Origin: a virus
DNA length: 21,629 bases
Virus record (IMG/VR): IMGVR_UViG_3300008261_000184
Span: 1-21,629 of that record
Direction: 5' to 3' (one strand)
Part shown: positions 10,301-21,629 of the stretch, piece by piece
Layout: each line of letters starts with the position of its first letter
How positions within the stretch are numbered: position 1 is the first letter of the stretch
The notes under the pieces: model-generated
Database searches by the model: none
What the model was told of the DNA's origin: nothing
What the model saw: the letters and a program-made list of their open reading frames with translations, nothing else
Made by a program: the position numbers and the translations under genes

Positions 10301-12223
10301 GCCTGGTGCATTATACTCTACACCACTATCTACATAATCAACACTTGCTGAATAGATAGATGATGTTGGTGCATAATATAAGAATTGTTCGTAAGGGTCA
10401 AAATTACGAATAACATTTTCAATTTGTAAAGCTTTATTTGACCCACCAGCGTTACTACTAGACAAGCTTGCAGATATACTCGCTGTCGTAAGACTTTCTA
10501 TCTCAGTTAGCTTGGTTTTAAAAGTAATCAACCTATCATACGCAGAACCAAAGTTTACAAAATTTCTGTAATCCGAAAAATCAATATTTAATTCCGATGA
10601 ATTAAAATCTGCGGTAAGCCATCTACGGAACACGGTATCATTATACGAATAAGTGCTACCACTTACCACTGTGCCCGCTGACCCAGTGGATAATCCTAAA
10701 GATTGGATTGTTGCATTAGTAATGTATTTATCAGTTGCTACATCAAATTTTATTGAATTGTTTACTGGACGTAGGTATGGAGTAGTGTCTGCCAGCTGTC
10801 CTAGTTCTAACTCAAATGTGTCAACTACACTCTTAGCGATATCCCGCGTAATATATGCGGTATCCAATGTTTGAATACTATCGTCAACAGGTGTTAGTAG
10901 TCTAAGTTGAACTTTGTTTGAATCGGTAGGTGCCAACCGCCACGCTTCAATCACATATTGGCGGTCTACGTTGAAGTTAAGGATACTCTTATATTCTTTT
11001 GATTCATCAAAGAAAGTAATTGCTTTATCGTTAACAATTTTGGTAGACCCGGATAATAAAGCATCTAATAATGGAACCGTGTACGTTATAAATGTTACAC
11101 TAGTAGGAATTGCTATTCTTGCCGATTCGATATTTGTTGCGTCAAGACTAACGTAGGCACTATCTTGCGTGTTTAAAATACTATCAATGAGTCTTATATA
11201 GTACTTAACTATATCTTGGCAATACGCAAATAGACGTTCGTTAGCGCTTAGTTGTCTACCATTAACAGTTATAGAAGATGGAATATACTTGTCAGAAAAA
11301 TCAAAGTGTGTTCTGTAATCTGGTGGGTAATTATCTGCACATTCTCCTACTCCACAAAACAGTGCATTTGCTAACGCTTGTTTTAATAATCGAACAGTTC
11401 CACCAGCATAAGATTCTGGTGGTTGTGTACTAACTCCTCGTCCCCAAATTCCAAATACAGAAGCTTTTGGGTCCGAGTACAATTTTGGATTCATGTTTGG
11501 AAAATCTTGCTTATTAAAGAACCAAACATTACTTACCATAACTTCTTGTAAACTTCCACCAGGAGCTAGCGGAGAATATCCCGATACGGGTTGGCTGAAG
11601 TTATCTAAGATAATTCTTAATTTTCTTTGTTTTTCTTGGAGTTGACCGCGAGTAAAGATAACTCTAGTAGATTTTACTATCTTAAATACCGGTTCAAACT
11701 CATATTCACCAATTGATGCTGTTACATATGAACCGAGAAACGATAGTTCATCCCCTGCATAAGTTATTCTATCTGCATAATACTTTAATTCTCTTGGAGC
11801 TATATCAGAGTCTACACCAAATCTATCGTTACTTGCTGTATTGATGTTTATAATTTGTGCACTACTAGTGACACTTCCAGACACAATATCAAGTAAAATA
11901 CTTTCTTGAATTACATTACGAGAGCTACTTACTGAGAATGAAGCGGAAGGATTTGCAAATACTTTTAACTCTACAGAACTGACTGGTGGAATTTGTATTA
12001 CTCTCGTATTATTCGACACCAACCCAGATGCAGTGTTATATACTTGTACCGTTGGGGTACTTGTGTTTTCCGCGTTGATTATAAGAGAAATAGGAATAGT
12101 GCTGTCATTATTTTTTAATGTCAGTGGCACACTAACCGCAGGATTACTAGTATTTTTGATATACTCAATACTACTAGTAGGGAATACGTACTCAAATGCT
12201 TTGGTTATGTCAAAAGTGCTCAT
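7313..12223 (-). CDS. Giant baseplate wedge/tail protein (gp7- and gpI-like region plus LamG-type domain)
   Basis: This is the largest gene in the window (1636 residues). The region around 700-810 (FVSMIGHMMDNIKVY, DPFDELTMDQVYEVAQSFGL from D726, TWKRVLHSAIYLVKSKGS, NTYGI near 803) resembles the helical core of P2 tail protein I and T4 gp7, which nucleates the baseplate wedge. Directly after it, about 830-1020, comes a LamG/concanavalin-like jelly-roll: FNSASSNYLSVP at its start and GVVDEVRVWGEN (D981-W986) near its end, the usual signature of these lectin domains. The remaining parts are Ser/Thr/Asn-rich beta regions; the C-terminus has a Pro/Cys-rich PPGCPWAPCPP stretch. Order after gp25 and gp6 agrees with gp7's place in T4, although T4 gp7 is shorter (1032 residues). 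It overlaps the upstream gene by 4 nt (ATGA). Binding of a cell-surface glycan by the LamG domain is inference. Confidence 0.82.
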   Translation of the reverse strand: MSTFDITKAFEYVFPTSSIEYIKNTSNPAVSVPLTLKNNDSTIPISLIINAENTSTPTVQVYNTASGLVSNNTRVIQIPPVSSVELKVFANPSASFSVSSSRNVIQESILLDIVSGSVTSSAQIININTASNDRFGVDSDIAPRELKYYADRITYAGDELSFLGSYVTASIGEYEFEPVFKIVKSTRVIFTRGQLQEKQRKLRIILDNFSQPVSGYSPLAPGGSLQEVMVSNVWFFNKQDFPNMNPKLYSDPKASVFGIWGRGVSTQPPESYAGGTVRLLKQALANALFCGVGECADNYPPDYRTHFDFSDKYIPSSITVNGRQLSANERLFAYCQDIVKYYIRLIDSILNTQDSAYVSLDATNIESARIAIPTSVTFITYTVPLLDALLSGSTKIVNDKAITFFDESKEYKSILNFNVDRQYVIEAWRLAPTDSNKVQLRLLTPVDDSIQTLDTAYITRDIAKSVVDTFELELGQLADTTPYLRPVNNSIKFDVATDKYITNATIQSLGLSTGSAGTVVSGSTYSYNDTVFRRWLTADFNSSELNIDFSDYRNFVNFGSAYDRLITFKTKLTEIESLTTASISASLSSSNAGGSNKALQIENVIRNFDPYEQFLYYAPTSSIYSASVDYVDSGVEYNAPGTWPKNSDGTVYSVAQASSWFSAQSLIAQRFDEYNQNILLKHLPLHIQESTESQEFLTFVSMIGHMMDNIKVYIDQFPYIHSTTPDPFDELTMDQVYEVAQSFGLELPNIYSLTNLENFISTYSSDSGSRSLVAETWKRVLHSAIYLVKSKGSRTSMDAVLNTYGITSPVLQIKESTYPIAGNYIRSDELTYGLTFNSASSNYLSVPFVSASFTAQTIQLRFNPTLRKAASLVTGDSKWTIDIVPHPSASKLDYGRVQVTSGSTRTVIASSSYFPLFSTDYTDIMLRSQSSDLHIIQTDGDQILYQESASVNLGGMWNNTTFIYVGSNGTNELDKYNGVVDEVRVWGENTSVQNFTEQAYDPGSLYGNNYTSSYDNLYVQLSFSQPLTSITQSVFNETPYENVSLIPTVAANGFTTASYIRFQRSIKQFVPIVGGTIFSNRKVVVSPPPVFANQYVDDNGTKVLKPNASIKAVSEKSYSAGLNQVSVAISPTDYINQNIIRSMGVIDVNNVIGTPRNIKNYSYAYLDNLRNEFLKYFNKSVDPNEYSRFFRNLVQAPSEMAETMVPARAKLIDGIVIESDILTRNKSTLARSFRVSGNDTELNNAYVSGSGSFNVGAFTFDASYDMEAERELLGDTTQWEGEINVPDEVTPISSTPSDKLSKQRKVYQYINNVTSGSLVTSSIMDDRSAFLTIEADAIETRPEERLSSPYPRNPYLGIPSKLPSEENTVTPLYEISPISDFSDVGTTTYFHKESGVYSYALTTPYKTPYVVKLDTKSDSPLDRLYANITLLEAGTVTAVTGRDTGDIQATTYASGSNTTGVIKMANTFTLLGINGANELRLRLYRDAAARDADISRPFTTIPSSSQGVLFDGLLNGQQDVFPHLMMQTSDSNIYYTITNTTSSSIFSAISIDYFIYEAGNPAPTGYLPRHYKFTRDNTTALKRRNYIGTVGTDAVAPPGCPWAPCPPFGTENSEANTVTVTTNGVAVVPNGGITLV

Positions 12224-13083
12224 AGTAATATAAATCTATATTGTTGATTTCTGGTTACCTTTTCATACTCTGTGCGAATCGCATTCGCCGCAATATCATT
12301 TAAATATACGCTGGTAAAGCTACTGGTTAGATTTGTTATGTCTCTTGCAACGGTATTTGATACTACTAGATACGCATTATCTAATACTTGTTGTGCGATT
12401 TGATATACCCCAGGAAAATTTACACTTCCTGTATCAAATCCATATTTTACCAAATCATCCGTGGTAGTTTCACCAAGTAGTGAAGCGATTGATTGACTAT
12501 TAAGCTGACTTCCTGTTGTGTAGGTAACAAGAGTAGCACTATTTGGTTGATTAAATAGTTGTTTGATAGCATTTTGTACATTTGCTGCGGAAATATACGG
12601 TATTGCAAACTTATTAAGTTCATTAATCTTTGTTGCATCGGTTAATTCTAATTCTATTTCTTGTCTTGTAATAGAGATATCGGTTACTTTTAATACTTGG
12701 TCAGTTGATGAACCGACTTCATTCTTAAAGAAATTAAATGTTGCAGAAACTTGACCAACCGGAAAGTTTATTCCGGTGAGTTTTGAGAAGTCTATAAATA
12801 ATAAATTTCTGCCAGTATTATCGTCGTAAGTTAACGTTTTAGTGACTAATGCGCCTGGAGTAGTTTCATTTGAAACGGTAGTAGTAAAAATAAGTGAATT
12901 GTCTGCTAAACTATAGATATTAACTTCAACATTGTATCCATTTAGATTTACTGGAAATTCCGCAGGAACTTCCATAGATAACAAGTCATCCGTTAGATTT
13001 TCGATAACGCGAGAAACGGTATACTTTGCATACCGTTTTGATTCACTTAATACGTCCGTTTTAAAATTTTCTTGATTTGCCAT
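12220..13083 (-). CDS. Baseplate-cassette protein, function unknown
   Basis: I do not recognise this 287-residue acidic protein. Its N-terminal half looks beta-rich and domain-like (FPVNLNGYNVEVNIYSL, LTYDDNTGRNLLFIDFSKL), perhaps an immunoglobulin-like or BppU-like fold that binds other baseplate parts. Its C-terminal half is more helical (VYQIAQQVLDNAYLVVSNTV) and ends in an aromatic/basic tail RNQQYRFILL. There are no membrane or catalytic motifs. It overlaps both neighbours (TAATG upstream, ATGA downstream), so its translation is tied to the 92-residue protein and the giant gp7-like protein. Location between gp6 and the gp7-like gene suggests a wedge component. Confidence 0.82.
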   Translation of the reverse strand: MANQENFKTDVLSESKRYAKYTVSRVIENLTDDLLSMEVPAEFPVNLNGYNVEVNIYSLADNSLIFTTTVSNETTPGALVTKTLTYDDNTGRNLLFIDFSKLTGINFPVGQVSATFNFFKNEVGSSTDQVLKVTDISITRQEIELELTDATKINELNKFAIPYISAANVQNAIKQLFNQPNSATLVTYTTGSQLNSQSIASLLGETTTDDLVKYGFDTGSVNFPGVYQIAQQVLDNAYLVVSNTVARDITNLTSSFTSVYLNDIAANAIRTEYEKVTRNQQYRFILL

Positions 13084-14402: not shown

Positions 14403-16324
14403 TGTGATGCGGTCCCTATGATATCTGTTTGTGGATTCTTCAACTCAAAGATACTTGGGTCGAGACTTGGATAAATAACATCATCAATAGTAGCTTCATC
14501 GATTGGATAGCGATATGGTTGATACTCTACGCCGTCAACGAATTGGTACTTGTTGAAAATTTCAATATTTCTTAATGTCTTAACGCCATCGATTGTATTA
14601 ATGACATTTCTTAAATCAGCCAAAATAATTGGTTGACCGATAGACCACTTGTCGATAGAGAAGAAGTTTTGAATTTCACCAATACAACGAGTCAATACAT
14701 CCCGCATATTATAGTTTTTAAATACTACGATTTCAAATTGAACACCGATATTAATGATAAACGCATCAAGAATGTTTACGTCATCTGTCATCAAACGGTA
14801 TTGTTCTAGATAACGTGCTAAATTGTCTTTTACAATCGTATTTAGTGTAGCGAGGTTTCCAGCCTTATTATATCCCAAGGTATATAGATTTATAGTATTT
14901 GGACGTACTGGATTGTCTACATATGTACGGTCTGATGATGTGGTACTTTGAATTCTGTTTATTTGTTCGTCACGGATAGCATAAGCTTTTGCAACTCTAC
15001 CGTACTTTTCGGGTAACGCTTGTGCTCTAATAATATAATCATCTACCGTGACCACACGGTTTTGTGCGTTGAAGAATCCTAATGCATTTTGTTTGATTTC
15101 TTCTGTAGACTCCCCGTCACCGCCACCCGTGGCTGGTTCTTCATTATTTACAGACAAACTTTGTACCGCAGTATTAAACGCGGATAATTCTGCGGTAGAA
15201 TATGCGGTAGTGTCATTTAAAATAATTGGGTTACTTACATTTACAATTGTATTTGACGGAGTGTTTGTACTTGTGCCACCACCAACTAAATAGGTTACAG
15301 TAAGTGTAGTGTTTGCTGGGGCAATTCCGTATGCATTACTGTTTAGGAAATTTACGTTATTTACTGAAGTGTTTCCTAGCACATTCTTAATAATATTACC
15401 ATATTGATTATTTGCGACTTGGCGAGAATCTAAAGTCAGATTTAATTCAGAATCGTCGCCTGTGCCTGAACCGAATAGTAATTCTACTCGTAAATTTCTA
15501 TTAACTCTTGTTGTAAATCTTTTTGGTACCTTACGTAATCTTAACTTTGCACTTGGCATGACGCCATCTTCATTATTATTTGTTACGTCTACGTCATCCA
15601 TAATGACATCTTGTGCCAAATAATCTACTTCGTACCACGTATTATTATCAGAATCTACTACACTTTCAACTCCGATAATTGGTTCATTTGGCAATGTTAT
15701 CGTAGTAAACTTTTGGGCAGTACCAAAATTAAAAGTCGCCGTCTTTGCTACGGCGGCAACTAACTTTGCTTGTTTTTCTACGATAAATGTGGAAGGTAAG
15801 CCGCCAGCCAATGAGTTAATAATATAGTTAGATTCCGTGATATCACTAAAATCTATATCCTCAATTAATCTAAATTGTATTGGGCTTTGGTCATTGGTGG
15901 TAAATATAGTTCCTGCGCCAACTTTTAACAAATATAACGGGTCTGGGGAATATACCCCATCCGTAAGTTTAGCTGGGACGATTTGGTATACGGTTGCGCT
16001 GGTTGTAGCAGGTGCTGTTAATCTTGGTTTGTATCCGAGAAATTGAGCGAGTGTGACTACGTTTTCAGTTTGTTCAGCGTATGCAAGTAAATTTTCTTTA
16101 AATTGGTTATCAATATAAAACGAAAGAACATCACCGACGTAGGCAGCCATATCTATAAACATCATACCTGGGGAAGATTCATTGAAATCCGAGTATGTGT
16201 TTGGGTAATATGACTTTGCGAACTCTATAAGATTTTGTCTAAAGTCGGTAAATGTCTTAGAAATATAATTAATTCTCTTGACATTTGGCCGTGGTTGTAT
16301 GATTATACTCTGATTACTAGCCAT
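14399..16324 (-). CDS. gp6: Baseplate wedge protein gp6 (J-like)
   Basis: This 641-residue protein is the T4 gp6/P2 gpJ-type wedge subunit that forms the inner ring of the baseplate and drives its change of shape at contraction. The N-terminus contains FTDFRQNLIEFAKSYYPNTY, FNESSPGMMFIDMAAYVGDVLSFYIDNQ and FLGYKPR, a classical gp6 block. The central J-like core shows STEEIKQNALGFFNAQNRVV followed by TVDDY near residues 405-430, then a Y-R-R-like YGRVAKAYAIRDE region. The length agrees with T4 gp6 (660). AGGAG precedes the ATG with 8-9 nt spacing. It follows gp25 by 20 nt and overlaps the DNRLRE gene by 4 nt, keeping the gp25-gp6 order seen in many myoviruses. Confidence 0.95.
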   Translation of the reverse strand: MASNQSIIIQPRPNVKRINYISKTFTDFRQNLIEFAKSYYPNTYSDFNESSPGMMFIDMAAYVGDVLSFYIDNQFKENLLAYAEQTENVVTLAQFLGYKPRLTAPATTSATVYQIVPAKLTDGVYSPDPLYLLKVGAGTIFTTNDQSPIQFRLIEDIDFSDITESNYIINSLAGGLPSTFIVEKQAKLVAAVAKTATFNFGTAQKFTTITLPNEPIIGVESVVDSDNNTWYEVDYLAQDVIMDDVDVTNNNEDGVMPSAKLRLRKVPKRFTTRVNRNLRVELLFGSGTGDDSELNLTLDSRQVANNQYGNIIKNVLGNTSVNNVNFLNSNAYGIAPANTTLTVTYLVGGGTSTNTPSNTIVNVSNPIILNDTTAYSTAELSAFNTAVQSLSVNNEEPATGGGDGESTEEIKQNALGFFNAQNRVVTVDDYIIRAQALPEKYGRVAKAYAIRDEQINRIQSTTSSDRTYVDNPVRPNTINLYTLGYNKAGNLATLNTIVKDNLARYLEQYRLMTDDVNILDAFIINIGVQFEIVVFKNYNMRDVLTRCIGEIQNFFSIDKWSIGQPIILADLRNVINTIDGVKTLRNIEIFNKYQFVDGVEYQPYRYPIDEATIDDVIYPSLDPSIFELKNPQTDIIGTASQ

Positions 16325-16344
16325 CTAGTACTCCTAATTTAAAT

Positions 16345-16809
16345 TTATCTACCCGGCACTGTTCCTCGAACAAGGCCTCGGATTGTAGTAGCTGATGTGT
16401 CGGATGTGCTTACTTCAGATAGAGCTTGCTCACCCCCAACTTCAATTGTAACCGAATCCGTTACGTTTGGATTACTTCTAAACCGATATAAACAATAAAG
16501 TTCTAAGCGGTTTTCAGCTGTATTTTCTGTGATGTCGAATTCGACAAGTTCCAAGAAAGGTAACCAATTGTCTATAGCTTCTATAATTACAAGTCTTGCT
16601 TGTTCTTTGGTTTCATCTGATATTTGTTCAAAGATAACTTTCCACAAATCACAACCAAATGTAGGCAACCCGACCCGTTCACCTTTTCTAGTTAAAATCA
16701 AATTTTTAAGATTTGACTTTGTTTGTTCTAGAATGGTGGTAGATTGTGAAAAATACCCCGTGTTTCCTCTTTTTAAGGGAAGGGTTATGCCTACATACTG
16801 TTGTGCCAT
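16345..16809 (-). CDS. gp25: Baseplate wedge protein gp25 (GPW/gp25 family)
   Basis: This 154-residue protein belongs to the gp25/TssE family, a wedge subunit that, from what is known in T4, touches the first sheath ring and gp6. The diagnostic segment SNLKNLILTRKGERVGLPTF runs from about residue 32, with E44-R45, P49 and F51-G52 corresponding to the family's EPR-type core, followed by DLWKVIFEQISDET. Residues 80-115 contain the typical VEFDITENTAENRLELYCLY strands. The C-terminal 35 residues are a Ser/Thr-rich extension. It lies directly between an unknown small protein (3 nt upstream) and gp6, the conserved order. Confidence 0.94.
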   Translation of the reverse strand: MAQQYVGITLPLKRGNTGYFSQSTTILEQTKSNLKNLILTRKGERVGLPTFGCDLWKVIFEQISDETKEQARLVIIEAIDNWLPFLELVEFDITENTAENRLELYCLYRFRSNPNVTDSVTIEVGGEQALSEVSTSDTSATTIRGLVRGTVPGR

Positions 16810-18913: not shown

Positions 18914-18928
18914 AGATAAGAATTATCT
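18914..18928. other. AT-rich inverted repeat spanning sigma-factor stop codon
   Basis: AGATAA and TTATCT form a perfect 6-bp inverted repeat around a 3-nt loop, extended by three more A-T pairs after a mismatch. The gp55-like stop lies in it. It contains almost no G-C pairs, so it would be a weak RNA hairpin; it may be an incidental feature, an mRNA-processing site or an operator next to the TATAATATA motif. Confidence 0.3.
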
Positions 18929-19663
18929 TTTATACGAGAAATAGGAGGATGGGTCGGAAAGATGTCCGTTTACACGAAATTCCCCCAACATCCGTATAAT
19001 GTGGGGTCGCATCTTATTAATGACCTTGGTAATGTGGGCGGTCTTATAATTGGTCATTTCCCGTACCATAAGGTAAAGGGCTTTTTTGTTAAAATTATCA
19101 ATATTATCTATTCGTTCAATCAATTTGACAATTGCGGTTGCTATTTCGATATCACGTTTCTTCTTGAATATCTTTGTAGTGTTGAACTCCCAGTATTGGA
19201 CTAATAATTTGAGGAATTCCTTCATATCCACCGTAGAATCACGTGTTTCTGGTTCTACAATTAGCATTTCTTCCAGTGTAAAGGAATCTTCGGTCTGGTC
19301 TGAAAAGTATAATACCCGCTTTTCTTCCTTATACGAGTTATTATTATGTAAAATCAAGTAATTCTTAGCAATTACACTAAAGTATGAGAATGCCTTTCCC
19401 TTATCTTCTGTAAATTTATGAAGATTGATAACAAGAAAAGAGACTACCTGCGCCTTAATCTCGTCGAAGGTACCCTCCATATATGGAAATTTGAACCGAT
19501 TGATAACGTTTTCTGCTAGCTTATCAAGCGGTCCTTGAATTTTACTTCTAAATAATTGTTCCCGAGTGTCGGGGTCATCTGATTTATTGTATGCGATTAT
19601 CGCTTTTTCAGTATCCTCTGTGAAATAGACTTTATCGCTCTTCTTCCTCGTTGTTATTACCAT
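18923..19663 (-). CDS. gp55: Late-transcription sigma factor, gp55-like
   Basis: This 246-residue protein resembles the divergent phage sigma factor gp55 that directs host RNA polymerase to late promoters. Visible features are VYFTEDTEKAIIAYNKSDD, a PLDKLAENVINRFKF segment, INLHKFTEDKGKAFSYFSVI (the region-2-like, promoter-melting part), and a KNYLILHNNNSYKEEKR basic helix; a later helical part (TNYKTAHITKVINKMRPHI) looks like a DNA-binding helix-turn-helix. I chose ATG at 19663 because GGAG lies 7 nt upstream; the in-frame ATG at 19687 lacks any SD. The start lies 32 nt inside the preceding membrane-protein gene, implying coupling. Its place immediately before the baseplate operon fits control of the virion genes. 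Confidence 0.85.
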   Translation of the reverse strand: MVITTRKKSDKVYFTEDTEKAIIAYNKSDDPDTREQLFRSKIQGPLDKLAENVINRFKFPYMEGTFDEIKAQVVSFLVINLHKFTEDKGKAFSYFSVIAKNYLILHNNNSYKEEKRVLYFSDQTEDSFTLEEMLIVEPETRDSTVDMKEFLKLLVQYWEFNTTKIFKKKRDIEIATAIVKLIERIDNIDNFNKKALYLMVREMTNYKTAHITKVINKMRPHIIRMLGEFRVNGHLSDPSSYFSYKR

Positions 19664-19919
19664 CACGAATCTCCGTAACGAATGCATATAACAAATCTAC
19701 ACATTCAACCAATTGTTTAAACACCGTTCCTACTTCATCGTCACGCTCAAACATTTGACGATTATCTATAGAACGCATAAGTCTTACGGTGGCGTTTGTG
19801 CGTCCGTAAAACTGATTAATAGCGTCCTCTAATTCTTCATTTTTTCTTAACATATTATATGTTGCGAAAGATAATAACGCAACAAGAATTGTCAAGACCA
19901 CAACCAAAAAAATAAGCAT
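19632..19919 (-). CDS. Small single-pass membrane protein, conserved in phages
   Basis: This 95-residue protein has one N-terminal hydrophobic helix (LIFLVVVLTILVALLSFATY) followed by a charged soluble part with the motif SIDNRQMFERDDEVGTVFKQL and a C-terminal acidic tail EEEER. The FERDDEVG-type motif recurs in small membrane proteins of T4-like phages as I remember them, without a known function. It lies directly after the lysozyme-like gene with a TAATG overlap, so a role in lysis timing (holin, pinholin or spanin-like) is possible, but a single helix with a large cytoplasmic-looking tail is not diagnostic. Confidence 0.82.
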   Translation of the reverse strand: MLIFLVVVLTILVALLSFATYNMLRKNEELEDAINQFYGRTNATVRLMRSIDNRQMFERDDEVGTVFKQLVECVDLLYAFVTEIRDGNNNEEEER

Positions 19920-20446
19920 TAAAATCTTTCCCGTAGTTTGTATTTATTGAATTCCTCTAAATAGTTACGAATAGAGGTACCATTTGCGTCCGTTCGACCG
20001 TTTGCATCATTGTCAGAGAAGTACTTTTTTACATTTCCTGCCCCCGCTAAATGCGCGGCAGCGAGAATTCCGGACCGAGTAATACGAATGCCCTTAAATA
20101 CGCGCCCATCATATCGGTCAATTAAGTTATTCAATGACATATTATTAGCTCGCATGTAGCTAACCATTACACTATCTTGAAGTTGTACGTTTTTTAGAAA
20201 TTGAGCACTGGTAACTTTGAATCCAAGTACTCGAATCGTATTTGGGTCAAATTGATACTTTCCCATCATACCAAATCTATTAACTACATGAGGTGTATTG
20301 TCACTCTCACGTTCTGCCATATGGTCAAGAAATCTTTCTAATTCTGTTGGTTCTGACCGAACAATACCATTTGGCACATGTACCGATTTTACTGACCCTG
20401 CTATTATAACCATCAGTGCTACGATTATACTTGCGAAGTATCTCAT
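19919..20446 (-). CDS. Exported lysozyme-fold / lytic transglycosylase-like protein
   Basis: This 175-residue protein carries an N-terminal hydrophobic stretch (ASIIVALMVIIAGS, about residues 5-18) that could be a signal peptide or a signal-anchor of SAR-endolysin type. It is followed by a transglycosylase-like core: MAERESDNTP with candidate catalytic E47, FGMMGKYQFDPN near residue 58-69, and GILAAAHLAGAGNVKKYF with a DANGTS segment near the C-terminus, a pattern common to small peptidoglycan-cleaving proteins. It likely cleaves cell wall at lysis or, less likely, at infection. The hub protein lacks a lysozyme domain, so this may be the phage's muralytic activity. The ATG follows GGAGGAACCT. 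Confidence 0.82.
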   Translation of the reverse strand: MRYFASIIVALMVIIAGSVKSVHVPNGIVRSEPTELERFLDHMAERESDNTPHVVNRFGMMGKYQFDPNTIRVLGFKVTSAQFLKNVQLQDSVMVSYMRANNMSLNNLIDRYDGRVFKGIRITRSGILAAAHLAGAGNVKKYFSDNDANGRTDANGTSIRNYLEEFNKYKLRERF

Positions 20447-20458
20447 AGGTTCCTCCGA

Positions 20459-21490
20459 TTACAGTAAGTGTGGTCTTGCCTCTGCCATACCCGCATTGGT
20501 CACCACCACATATTCTGGGAAGTACTCTTGTAAACTCTCTGCTCCTGCATAGGATAGTGCAGAACGTAATCCATCCAAAAGTCCATCCACCACAAACTTT
20601 ACCTTTCCCTTAAATGGAACAATAGTTGATTCACCTTCAACATTACGAGTTGCTTGTCCGTGGATACTCTTTGTTTCCAAAGAAGCAGCGCCACGATAGC
20701 GCTTATACAATCCGTTTGCCTTCTCAATCATAGCACCAGGCGCTTCCTTTGTTCCTGCGATAAGTGACCCAAGGATAACTGTATTCGCACCAACTGCCAA
20801 CGCCTTCGCAATGTCACCACTATTTCTGATACCACCACATGCAATCACAGGAACCTTTGCTACTGACGATACGTCTATCAATGAGGTAACGTTCGGAACT
20901 CCAAACCCCGTCTTAACACGGGTAGTACAGAGTGACCCACCACCGATTCCGACACGAAGTCCATCGGCTCCCCAGTCTTGAAGCGCTTCTGCTGCGTTTG
21001 CAGTAGCGATGTTTCCTGCGATTATGTCAACGTGCGAGGGCAAATTGTTCTTTAAGTTAGAAATTGCGTCACGAACAAAACTATGATATCCATGTGCGAC
21101 ATCAATTAAAATAATGTCTACTCCATTATTGACTAATTCTTTTGCTCGTTCGAGATAATCTCCATTTGCACCAATAGCTGCCATAACATGAGGCGTCCAC
21201 CAATCACGATTCTTTACTGTTGCGCTCACCTTTAGAACTTGCTCTGCTTGCTGCTCAATCGTCATAAACCGATGAATACATCCGATACCACCAAGTTCTG
21301 CCATAGCAACTGCCATCTCACTATCACAAACCGTATCCATTGGAGAGGCAACCAACGGAACCCTAATACTATAATTAGTAGTGAGTTTGGTAGTAAGGTC
21401 AATATTTTGACGCGATTCAATTCCCGAATATGCAGGAATAAGTTGAATATCATCGTATGTCAGTGCTTGCTTAGCGTGTAATTGTGTCAT
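20459..21490 (-). CDS. IMP dehydrogenase / GMP reductase family enzyme without CBS domains
   Basis: This 343-residue TIM-barrel enzyme shows the IMPDH/GMPR core: ALTYDDIQLIP at the N-terminus, ASPMDTV (48-54), DVAHG (130-134), AGNIAT, the catalytic loop GIGGGSLCTTR with C188, CGGIRNSGDIAKAL (from 218) and GSLIAGT (G241-S242), then YRGAAS and PFKG near 292-295. It lacks the CBS pair normally inserted after about residue 90 of bacterial IMPDH, matching GMPR length. Features lean both ways: RVKTG after the catalytic loop and the short EGEST...PFKG flap resemble GMPR, while GGIR/GS/YRG resemble IMPDH. Reaction is therefore IMP to XMP (NAD) or GMP to IMP (NADPH). C218 replaces the usual Asp that binds ribose. 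ATG 21490 is preferred over TTG 21520. It likely adjusts purine nucleotide pools for phage DNA synthesis. Confidence 0.88.
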   Translation of the reverse strand: MTQLHAKQALTYDDIQLIPAYSGIESRQNIDLTTKLTTNYSIRVPLVASPMDTVCDSEMAVAMAELGGIGCIHRFMTIEQQAEQVLKVSATVKNRDWWTPHVMAAIGANGDYLERAKELVNNGVDIILIDVAHGYHSFVRDAISNLKNNLPSHVDIIAGNIATANAAEALQDWGADGLRVGIGGGSLCTTRVKTGFGVPNVTSLIDVSSVAKVPVIACGGIRNSGDIAKALAVGANTVILGSLIAGTKEAPGAMIEKANGLYKRYRGAASLETKSIHGQATRNVEGESTIVPFKGKVKFVVDGLLDGLRSALSYAGAESLQEYFPEYVVVTNAGMAEARPHLL

Positions 21491-21629
21491 AATACTCGTT
21501 TTGTTTGCGTTGACGGTCAATATCCTTGATATGATATAGACACCATTCTTCTTCCTCTGGAAGTGGAGCAGTGGTCTTGTATCCAGTTATACGTTCGTGA
21601 ACTTTACCTTCCCATTTGATTTCTGGAAT
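21471..21629 (-). CDS. C-terminal part of an unknown gene, cut by right window edge
   Basis: An open frame enters from the right edge and ends at TAA 21471-21473. The visible 52 residues begin IPEIKWEGKVHERITGYKTT and include an acidic PEEEEWC cluster, ending in the charged IDRQRKQNEYYDTITR. I do not recognise it. Its last 20 nt overlap the ATG at 21490 of the IMPDH/GMPR gene, so the two are translationally coupled. The lack of an upstream SD for that enzyme gene supports such coupling. Confidence 0.6.
   Translation of the reverse strand: MPEIKWEGKVHERITGYKTTAPLPEEEEWCLYHIKDIDRQRKQNEYYDTITR

Follow-up and report, generated by a model that had tools for sequence, protein, structure and literature searches.

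A fixed Asp-to-Cys change at the sugar-contact position of a probable GMP-reductase-type enzyme in a lineage of large tailed phages

The locus and its conserved gene block

The stretch of DNA analysed here (the window) is a 21.6-kb virus fragment from IMG/VR (21,629 nucleotides), in which tail, baseplate, primase and SbcCD-like genes are present. The features of importance for this work are as follows.

20459..21490, minus strand: GMP-reductase-type (GMPR-type) PF00478 gene, 343 aa; ATG at 21490, stop codon at 20459-20461, intact open reading frame
20927..20929, minus strand: codon of the catalytic Cys188 (GIGGGSLCTTR), which pairs with C305 of E. coli GuaB
20837..20839, minus strand: codon TGT of Cys218 (VIACGGIR), aligned with D338 of E. 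coli GuaB and D219 of GuaC
20774..20776, minus strand: codon ATC of Ile239, aligned with M359 of E. coli GuaB and M240 of GuaC
20606..20698, minus strand: active-site flap as located by alignment, residues 265-295, YRGAASLETKSIHGQATRNVEGESTIVPFKG
21471..21629, minus strand: 3' end of a family-2 glycosyltransferase gene, recognised from its sequence (a full-length neighbour, L003:5346-5978, is PF00535)
19919..20446, minus strand: SLT-type lytic transglycosylase (PF01464, E 8e-6), downstream of the GMPR-type gene

The GMPR-type gene is located on the minus strand, which was left unstated in the earlier note on this DNA. In profile searches, the PF00478 domain extends without interruption over residues 9-341 of the 343-aa protein (E 4.8e-104) and no match to a CBS domain was found in it; with this full-length domain and the catalytic Cys loop, the protein belongs to the IMPDH/GMPR (PF00478) superfamily. 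The absence of the CBS domains and the intactness of the catalytic Cys188 are thus both as described in the earlier note. A pair of CBS domains inserted in the barrel is usual for IMPDH, but it is not universal. Further, as most GMP reductases are normally without CBS domains, the escape from purine feedback that had been ascribed to their loss is not a special feature of this protein.

The glycosyltransferase gene extends about 20 bases into the 5' end of the GMPR-type gene, and this overlap suggests translational coupling of the two genes. In phages where residue 218 is Cys (Cys-type), the conserved block begins with genes for an HNH endonuclease, HD-type hydrolase, Hsp20, membrane protein, UvdE and the family-2 glycosyltransferase, after which come the GMPR-type gene, the SLT transglycosylase (a neighbour in 60 Cys-type loci among the best 80 matches per query) and then the tail and baseplate genes. 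The placement of the gene within this block supports its phage origin, and the Cys-type phages are a group of large tailed phages.

Some other features of this lineage can be recorded here. A single ORF at positions 1-2826 of the window (minus strand) consists of fused SbcD-like and SbcC-like parts (phrog_100 at residues 12-369 and phrog_77 at residues 304-934), whereas in T4 gp47 and gp46 are separate. A 254-aa protein encoded at 18923-19687 (minus strand) occurs almost throughout the lineage (59 Cys-type loci among the best 80 matches per query); within the window no PHROG or Pfam match was seen for it, and from its location and composition a putative role as a late sigma-like factor is conceivable. 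A contig of about 148 kb from the same lineage (G009, inclusive of loci L235-L242) encodes a family-B DNA polymerase, a divergent B12-type ribonucleotide reductase, 2OG-Fe(II) oxygenase, radical SAM and DUF6065 proteins, and several similar ORFs which by eye resemble sulfotransferases.

Fixation and phylogenetic distribution of Cys218 and Ile239

The encoded relatives of this protein in IMG/VR numbered at least 155 by a single-protein query and at least 247 by an alignment query, and the best 80 matches per query were used. Cys218 was present in 62/62 loci with ACGG(I/V)R downstream of GGGSLC in this set, its codon being TGT in 53 and TGC in 9 of them, and position 239 was Ile in the same 62 loci, written with three different Ile codons. 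As Cys218 occurs in all of these loci and is written in two ways, it is neither a product of chance or sequencing error nor an oddity of one contig. The Asp-to-Cys change at the ribose-contact position described in the earlier note is therefore real, and Cys218 is a character maintained in one phage lineage. When 36 dereplicated Cys-type rows were compared with 51 Asp-type rows (from phages and Bacteroidota), position 218 was C in 36/36 of the former and D in 51/51 of the latter, position 239 was I in 36/36 and M in 51/51, respectively, and these were the only two perfectly discriminating positions. Over a larger alignment of 112 rows, which takes in E. coli GuaB and GuaC, cellular GuaB and very distant phage homologues, position 218 was Asp in 76 rows, Cys in 36 and nothing else. 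Cys is standard at this position only within this uncharacterised phage clade, and the characterised family with a standard Cys, which the earlier note had named as the finding that would speak against its proposal, was not encountered.

The 36 dereplicated Cys-type sequences share a mean pairwise identity of 74% (minimum 65%), and dN/dS over the gene is 0.10-0.18 in comparisons of close relatives. The catalytic Cys188 is invariant in the Cys- and Asp-type members of the family, and Thr190 and Glu285 are retained in all clade members sampled. The catalytic loop of two Cys-type members (L052:6001-7017 and L053:190-1206) reads CCTR and not CTTR, so that it has two adjoining cysteines, and in two distant phage relatives (L082 and L083; LR756508, Microcystis phage Mel-JY01) CTTR is replaced by CETR after the catalytic Cys.

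In a wide quick tree constructed with the column of this trait masked, a single branch (SH-aLRT 87) sets all Cys-type rows apart, and one change at position 218 is sufficient. However, a strict single origin of Cys218, which held in this tree, failed in the more careful trees: a careful family-only tree requires 2 changes, because the Asp-type L180 falls within the Cys clade beside L048 (98/91), and a tree based on the LG+G4 model with a distant outgroup requires 3. L180 is a long branch that has the shared phage gene block, and its Asp may represent a reversion, a recombination event or the misplacement of a long branch. Parts of the Cys-type gene block are also present in other Asp-type phages (viz. 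L173, L066, L177 and L181), and its occurrence in L180 and L173 indicates that the Asp-to-Cys change arose in an already established phage gene.

The nearest cellular relatives, at 61-70% identity, are paralogues from Chitinophagaceae and other Bacteroidota, all of which have Asp. These paralogues adjoin seemingly ordinary chromosomal genes (ORFs inspected by eye), and in 6 of the 7 Bacteroidota genomes checked that carry one, a GuaB-like match in an open frame of 504-526 aa is also present; as a separate full-length GuaB exists in these genomes, the paralogue is not the housekeeping IMPDH. Like the Cys-type enzyme, the paralogues and the Asp-type phage proteins (together about 60-70% identical to it) lack CBS domains and share its flap and the GGGSLCTTR loop, but they all keep Asp218 and Met239. 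Separately, several records described as phage (e.g. OR847177, CAKLQH020000013 and MK416010) contain apparently ordinary bacterial guaB/guaC genes, which are probably host DNA included in the record.

Evidence for GMP-reductase-type chemistry

The earlier note had characterised the protein as a mixture of IMPDH and GMPR features, and the alignment bears this out. The C-terminal tail ARPHLL and the general sequence are IMPDH-like, and it is in the flap and in CTTR-x-KTG that the protein resembles GMPR. Similar to GMP reductase (GuaC, EC 1.7.1.7; TIGR01305, TIGR01306/NF003966), the phage enzyme is a single domain without CBS and has a short flap, the EG glutamate, CTTR-x-KTG, and the catalytic Cys and Thr; it differs from GMP reductase in having GGG rather than GPG in the catalytic loop, a tail like that of IMPDH, and Cys and Ile where GMP reductase has the sugar Asp and the Met, and it is below every curated cut-off. 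With IMP dehydrogenase (GuaB, EC 1.1.1.205; TIGR01302) it has in common the PF00478 barrel, the catalytic Cys and a similar core and tail, but the Arg-Tyr hydrolysis dyad, the longer flap, the CBS domains and the sugar Asp of that enzyme are missing.

The scores of curated models do not assign the protein to either enzyme. Its best NCBIfam raw score is with TIGR01302 for IMPDH (293.2 bits, below the cut-off of 481.5), the GMP reductase model NF003966 gives 231 bits against a cut-off of 344, and among the GMP reductase profiles TIGR01305, TIGR01306, NF003966, NF003470 and NF052358 it remains below every cut-off. None of the curated equivalog models is passed by the Bacteroidota paralogue and the phage relatives tested either, which indicates that these proteins constitute an uncharacterised subfamily. 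Structure comparison does not discriminate between the two enzymes, its best matches being T. brucei GMPR (6jig) and IMPDHs at the same level (Z about 40, rmsd 2.7-2.8 A over 319-328 residues). The catalytic loop and the flap (residues 184-198 and 265-289) are the weak parts of the AlphaFold model.

The hydrolysis step of IMPDH needs an Arg-Tyr pair located on a long mobile flap (R401/Y402 in E. coli). The positions of R401/Y402 of E. coli GuaB are deleted in all 36 Cys-type and 51 Asp-type rows, the EG glutamate (E415 in GuaB, E285 here) is kept on a flap of GMPR length, and a Lys is present two residues past CTTR, as in GuaC, where GuaB has Val. The flap is thus of GMP-reductase type, and on this ground an identification as IMPDH by best raw score was rejected. 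From these sequence characteristics, the Cys-type enzyme very probably uses GMP-reductase-type chemistry (G to I), and due to the deletion of the Arg-Tyr residues the likely reaction consumes guanylate rather than making it.

The sugar pocket, the PurA partner and the proposed deoxynucleotide route

The residue replaced by Cys218 is, as the earlier note had stated, normally an Asp that holds the ribose of IMP; according to one report (PMC6992785), Asp358, Gly360 and Gly381 of T. brucei IMPDH usually form hydrogen bonds with the ribose and phosphate of IMP. By its title, another study (Kerr 2000, cited in PMC4342496) describes the control of hydride transfer by Asp338 in the IMPDH of E. coli. 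GMP reductase also has Asp at this ribose-contact position (D219 of E. coli GuaC), whereas the present enzyme has Cys. The replacement of Asp218, together with the change of the Met located 21 residues further on, should weaken the binding of ribose, and the simplest reason for fixing the Asp-to-Cys change would be a sugar without a 2'-hydroxyl. In the reaction proposed here, Cys188 would attack C2 of a guanine 5'-nucleotide with the departure of ammonia, and a hydride from NAD(P)H would then yield the inosine nucleotide. The changes of Asp218 to Cys and Met239 to Ile would remove the carboxylate holding the ribose hydroxyls and rebuild the pocket, the substrate would be 2'-deoxy-GMP (e.g. out of degraded host DNA), and the resulting dIMP would be converted to dAMP by PurA and PurB of the host, the PurA step being taken in some clade members by a phage PurA whose sugar loop is altered.

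A short PurA homologue was identified outside the window in 7 of the 37 Cys-type contigs searched, and an eighth contig with both PurA and Cys218 (G064) was reached from the PurA side; it was found in 0/18 Asp-type contigs and in 0/10 further reference genomes of phages that carry a PF00478 gene. Since many of the contigs are incomplete and the phages share descent, these counts are not independent. No PurA or PurZ ORF was seen in the ORF list of the window. The PurA of the 8 Cys-type contigs is 337 aa long (e.g. L197:1483-2496) and keeps Asp13 (in 10/10 aligned copies), the NKxD of the GTP site and Arg303; as Asp13 and NKxD are kept, it should use a hypoxanthine nucleotide. However, its loop TRVGxGPFPTEL, which contains Val273 in E. 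coli, has been rebuilt to TYSGFKTTFQDE in 10/10 aligned copies, with Ser in place of Val273, whereas this Val is kept in 8 cellular PurAs, E. coli PurA, the nearest other phage PurA and two PurZs. In PurZ, according to one report (PMC8342488), the Val of this loop is placed so as to interfere with a 2'-OH. With two consecutive enzymes altered at the sugar, a dGMP to dIMP to dAMP route becomes attractive, and the co-occurrence of the GMPR-type enzyme and PurA suggests a route from guanylate to adenylate that may run on deoxynucleotides. PurB was not detected by PF00206 in 18 contigs, and the final step would therefore be that of the host. Two observations run counter to the deoxy route: the Val273-to-Ser change gives room and does not block a 2'-OH, and Arg303, the O2' contact of ordinary PurA, is retained.

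The presence of PurA and that of Cys218 are also separable in both directions. PurA was not found in a Cys-type contig of 146 kb (L021), and since C218 is thus independent of phage PurA, the latter is ruled out as its obligatory partner. In another Cys218 phage, the contig of L048 (L205, G043:8741-8878), a weak PurA remnant with two in-frame TGA stops is present, which points to at least one probable loss of PurA in the clade. Conversely, contig G066 (L243) carries a GuaC1-type reductase (11774-12907) that keeps the Asp and, about 2.7 kb away, a PurA of the same unusual type (15558-16553), both on the minus strand. This pairing of an Asp-type reductase with the PurA of the clade supports a GMPR-to-PurA pathway for which Cys218 is not required, and the GMPR half has apparently been swapped by non-orthologous replacement.

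Based on these results, our tentative reading, to which we assign slightly less than an even chance, is that of a phage GMPR-type enzyme with a rebuilt sugar pocket serving dGMP to dIMP to dAMP. It is possible that a dGMP reductase, joined in some clade members by a PurA acting on dIMP, turns the deoxyguanylate of host DNA, as the monophosphate, into deoxyadenylate, but this is put forward with greater reserve. The catalytic activity, the direction of the reaction, the deoxy preference and the pathway are predictions, whereas the substitutions, their fixation, the flap and the co-resident PurA are features of the sequences themselves. The deoxy reading is the best single explanation, but its lead is small over that of an ordinary GMP reductase which acts on GMP and rebalances the GMP/AMP pools, in which the Asp-to-Cys and Met-to-Ile changes would be compensated, near-neutral drift. 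This alternative, about which we are doubtful without considering it improbable, agrees with the GMPR type of the flap, the retention of Arg303 in the phage PurA, the Asp-type reductase paired with the same PurA in G066, and the sharing of parts of the gene block with Asp-type phages, by which the gene worked before the change. However, the Asp is invariant in the 76 sequences outside the clade, inclusive of the very distant phage homologues, and the maintenance of Cys and Ile in 62/62 loci at 65-100% identity, with turnover of synonymous codons, is unlike drift.

The proposal that the enzyme belongs to a DNA-modification pathway, supplying dIMP for deoxyinosine in phage DNA or for another altered purine, is unlikely. 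The sugar-pocket change is suited to a deoxynucleotide, the dIMP need not become dAMP in those clade members that are without PurA, and a glycosyltransferase gene overlaps the GMPR-type gene; but the family-B polymerase of the one long contig read (G009) is ordinary and no modification enzyme was seen among the genes tested, which take in the minor, annotated part of that contig. In the PurZ/2-aminoadenine (Z-DNA) pathway, which is analogous in that a purine enzyme has been adapted to dGMP (PMC8342488, PMC12884076), the enzyme is from another family, and Ser rather than Asp is present at the catalytic position in all 147 phage PurZ sequences (PMC12884076). As the PurA of the clade keeps Asp13 and scores 121 bits with the PurZ model (cut-off 300), it is not a Z-DNA enzyme, and with no PurZ found, 2-aminoadenine DNA was rejected; the modified base in phage DNA considered in the earlier note consequently receives little support. 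An unregulated IMP dehydrogenase raising the guanylate supply for phage DNA is very unlikely, as the TIGR01302 score and the IMPDH-like tail that favour it are opposed by the deleted R401/Y402 dyad, a flap about 10 residues too short, the separate full GuaB in cellular genomes with the paralogue, and the loss of a residue which, by the title noted above, controls hydride transfer in IMPDH. Although this same loss could point to a catalytically dead or regulatory relative binding another purine ligand, such a protein is highly improbable in view of the catalytic Cys, Thr190 and Glu285 kept in the sampled clade and the dN/dS of 0.10-0.18.

In the literature searched, no report of a phage GMP reductase with an altered sugar site was found, and no paper on a 'dGMP reductase' activity (by this name and its variants) was found in the open-access literature searched. 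If the sugar specificity of the enzyme has truly changed, then these phages hold a deoxy-specific GMP reductase, which would constitute a further phage route, beside the PurZ pathway, for balancing the purine precursors of DNA, and residues 218 and 239 would provide a two-residue handle on ribose versus deoxyribose in a major drug-target family. Even if the enzyme proves to be an ordinary GMP reductase, nature has here removed the Asp that grips the sugar, which offers a ready experiment on the role of this residue.
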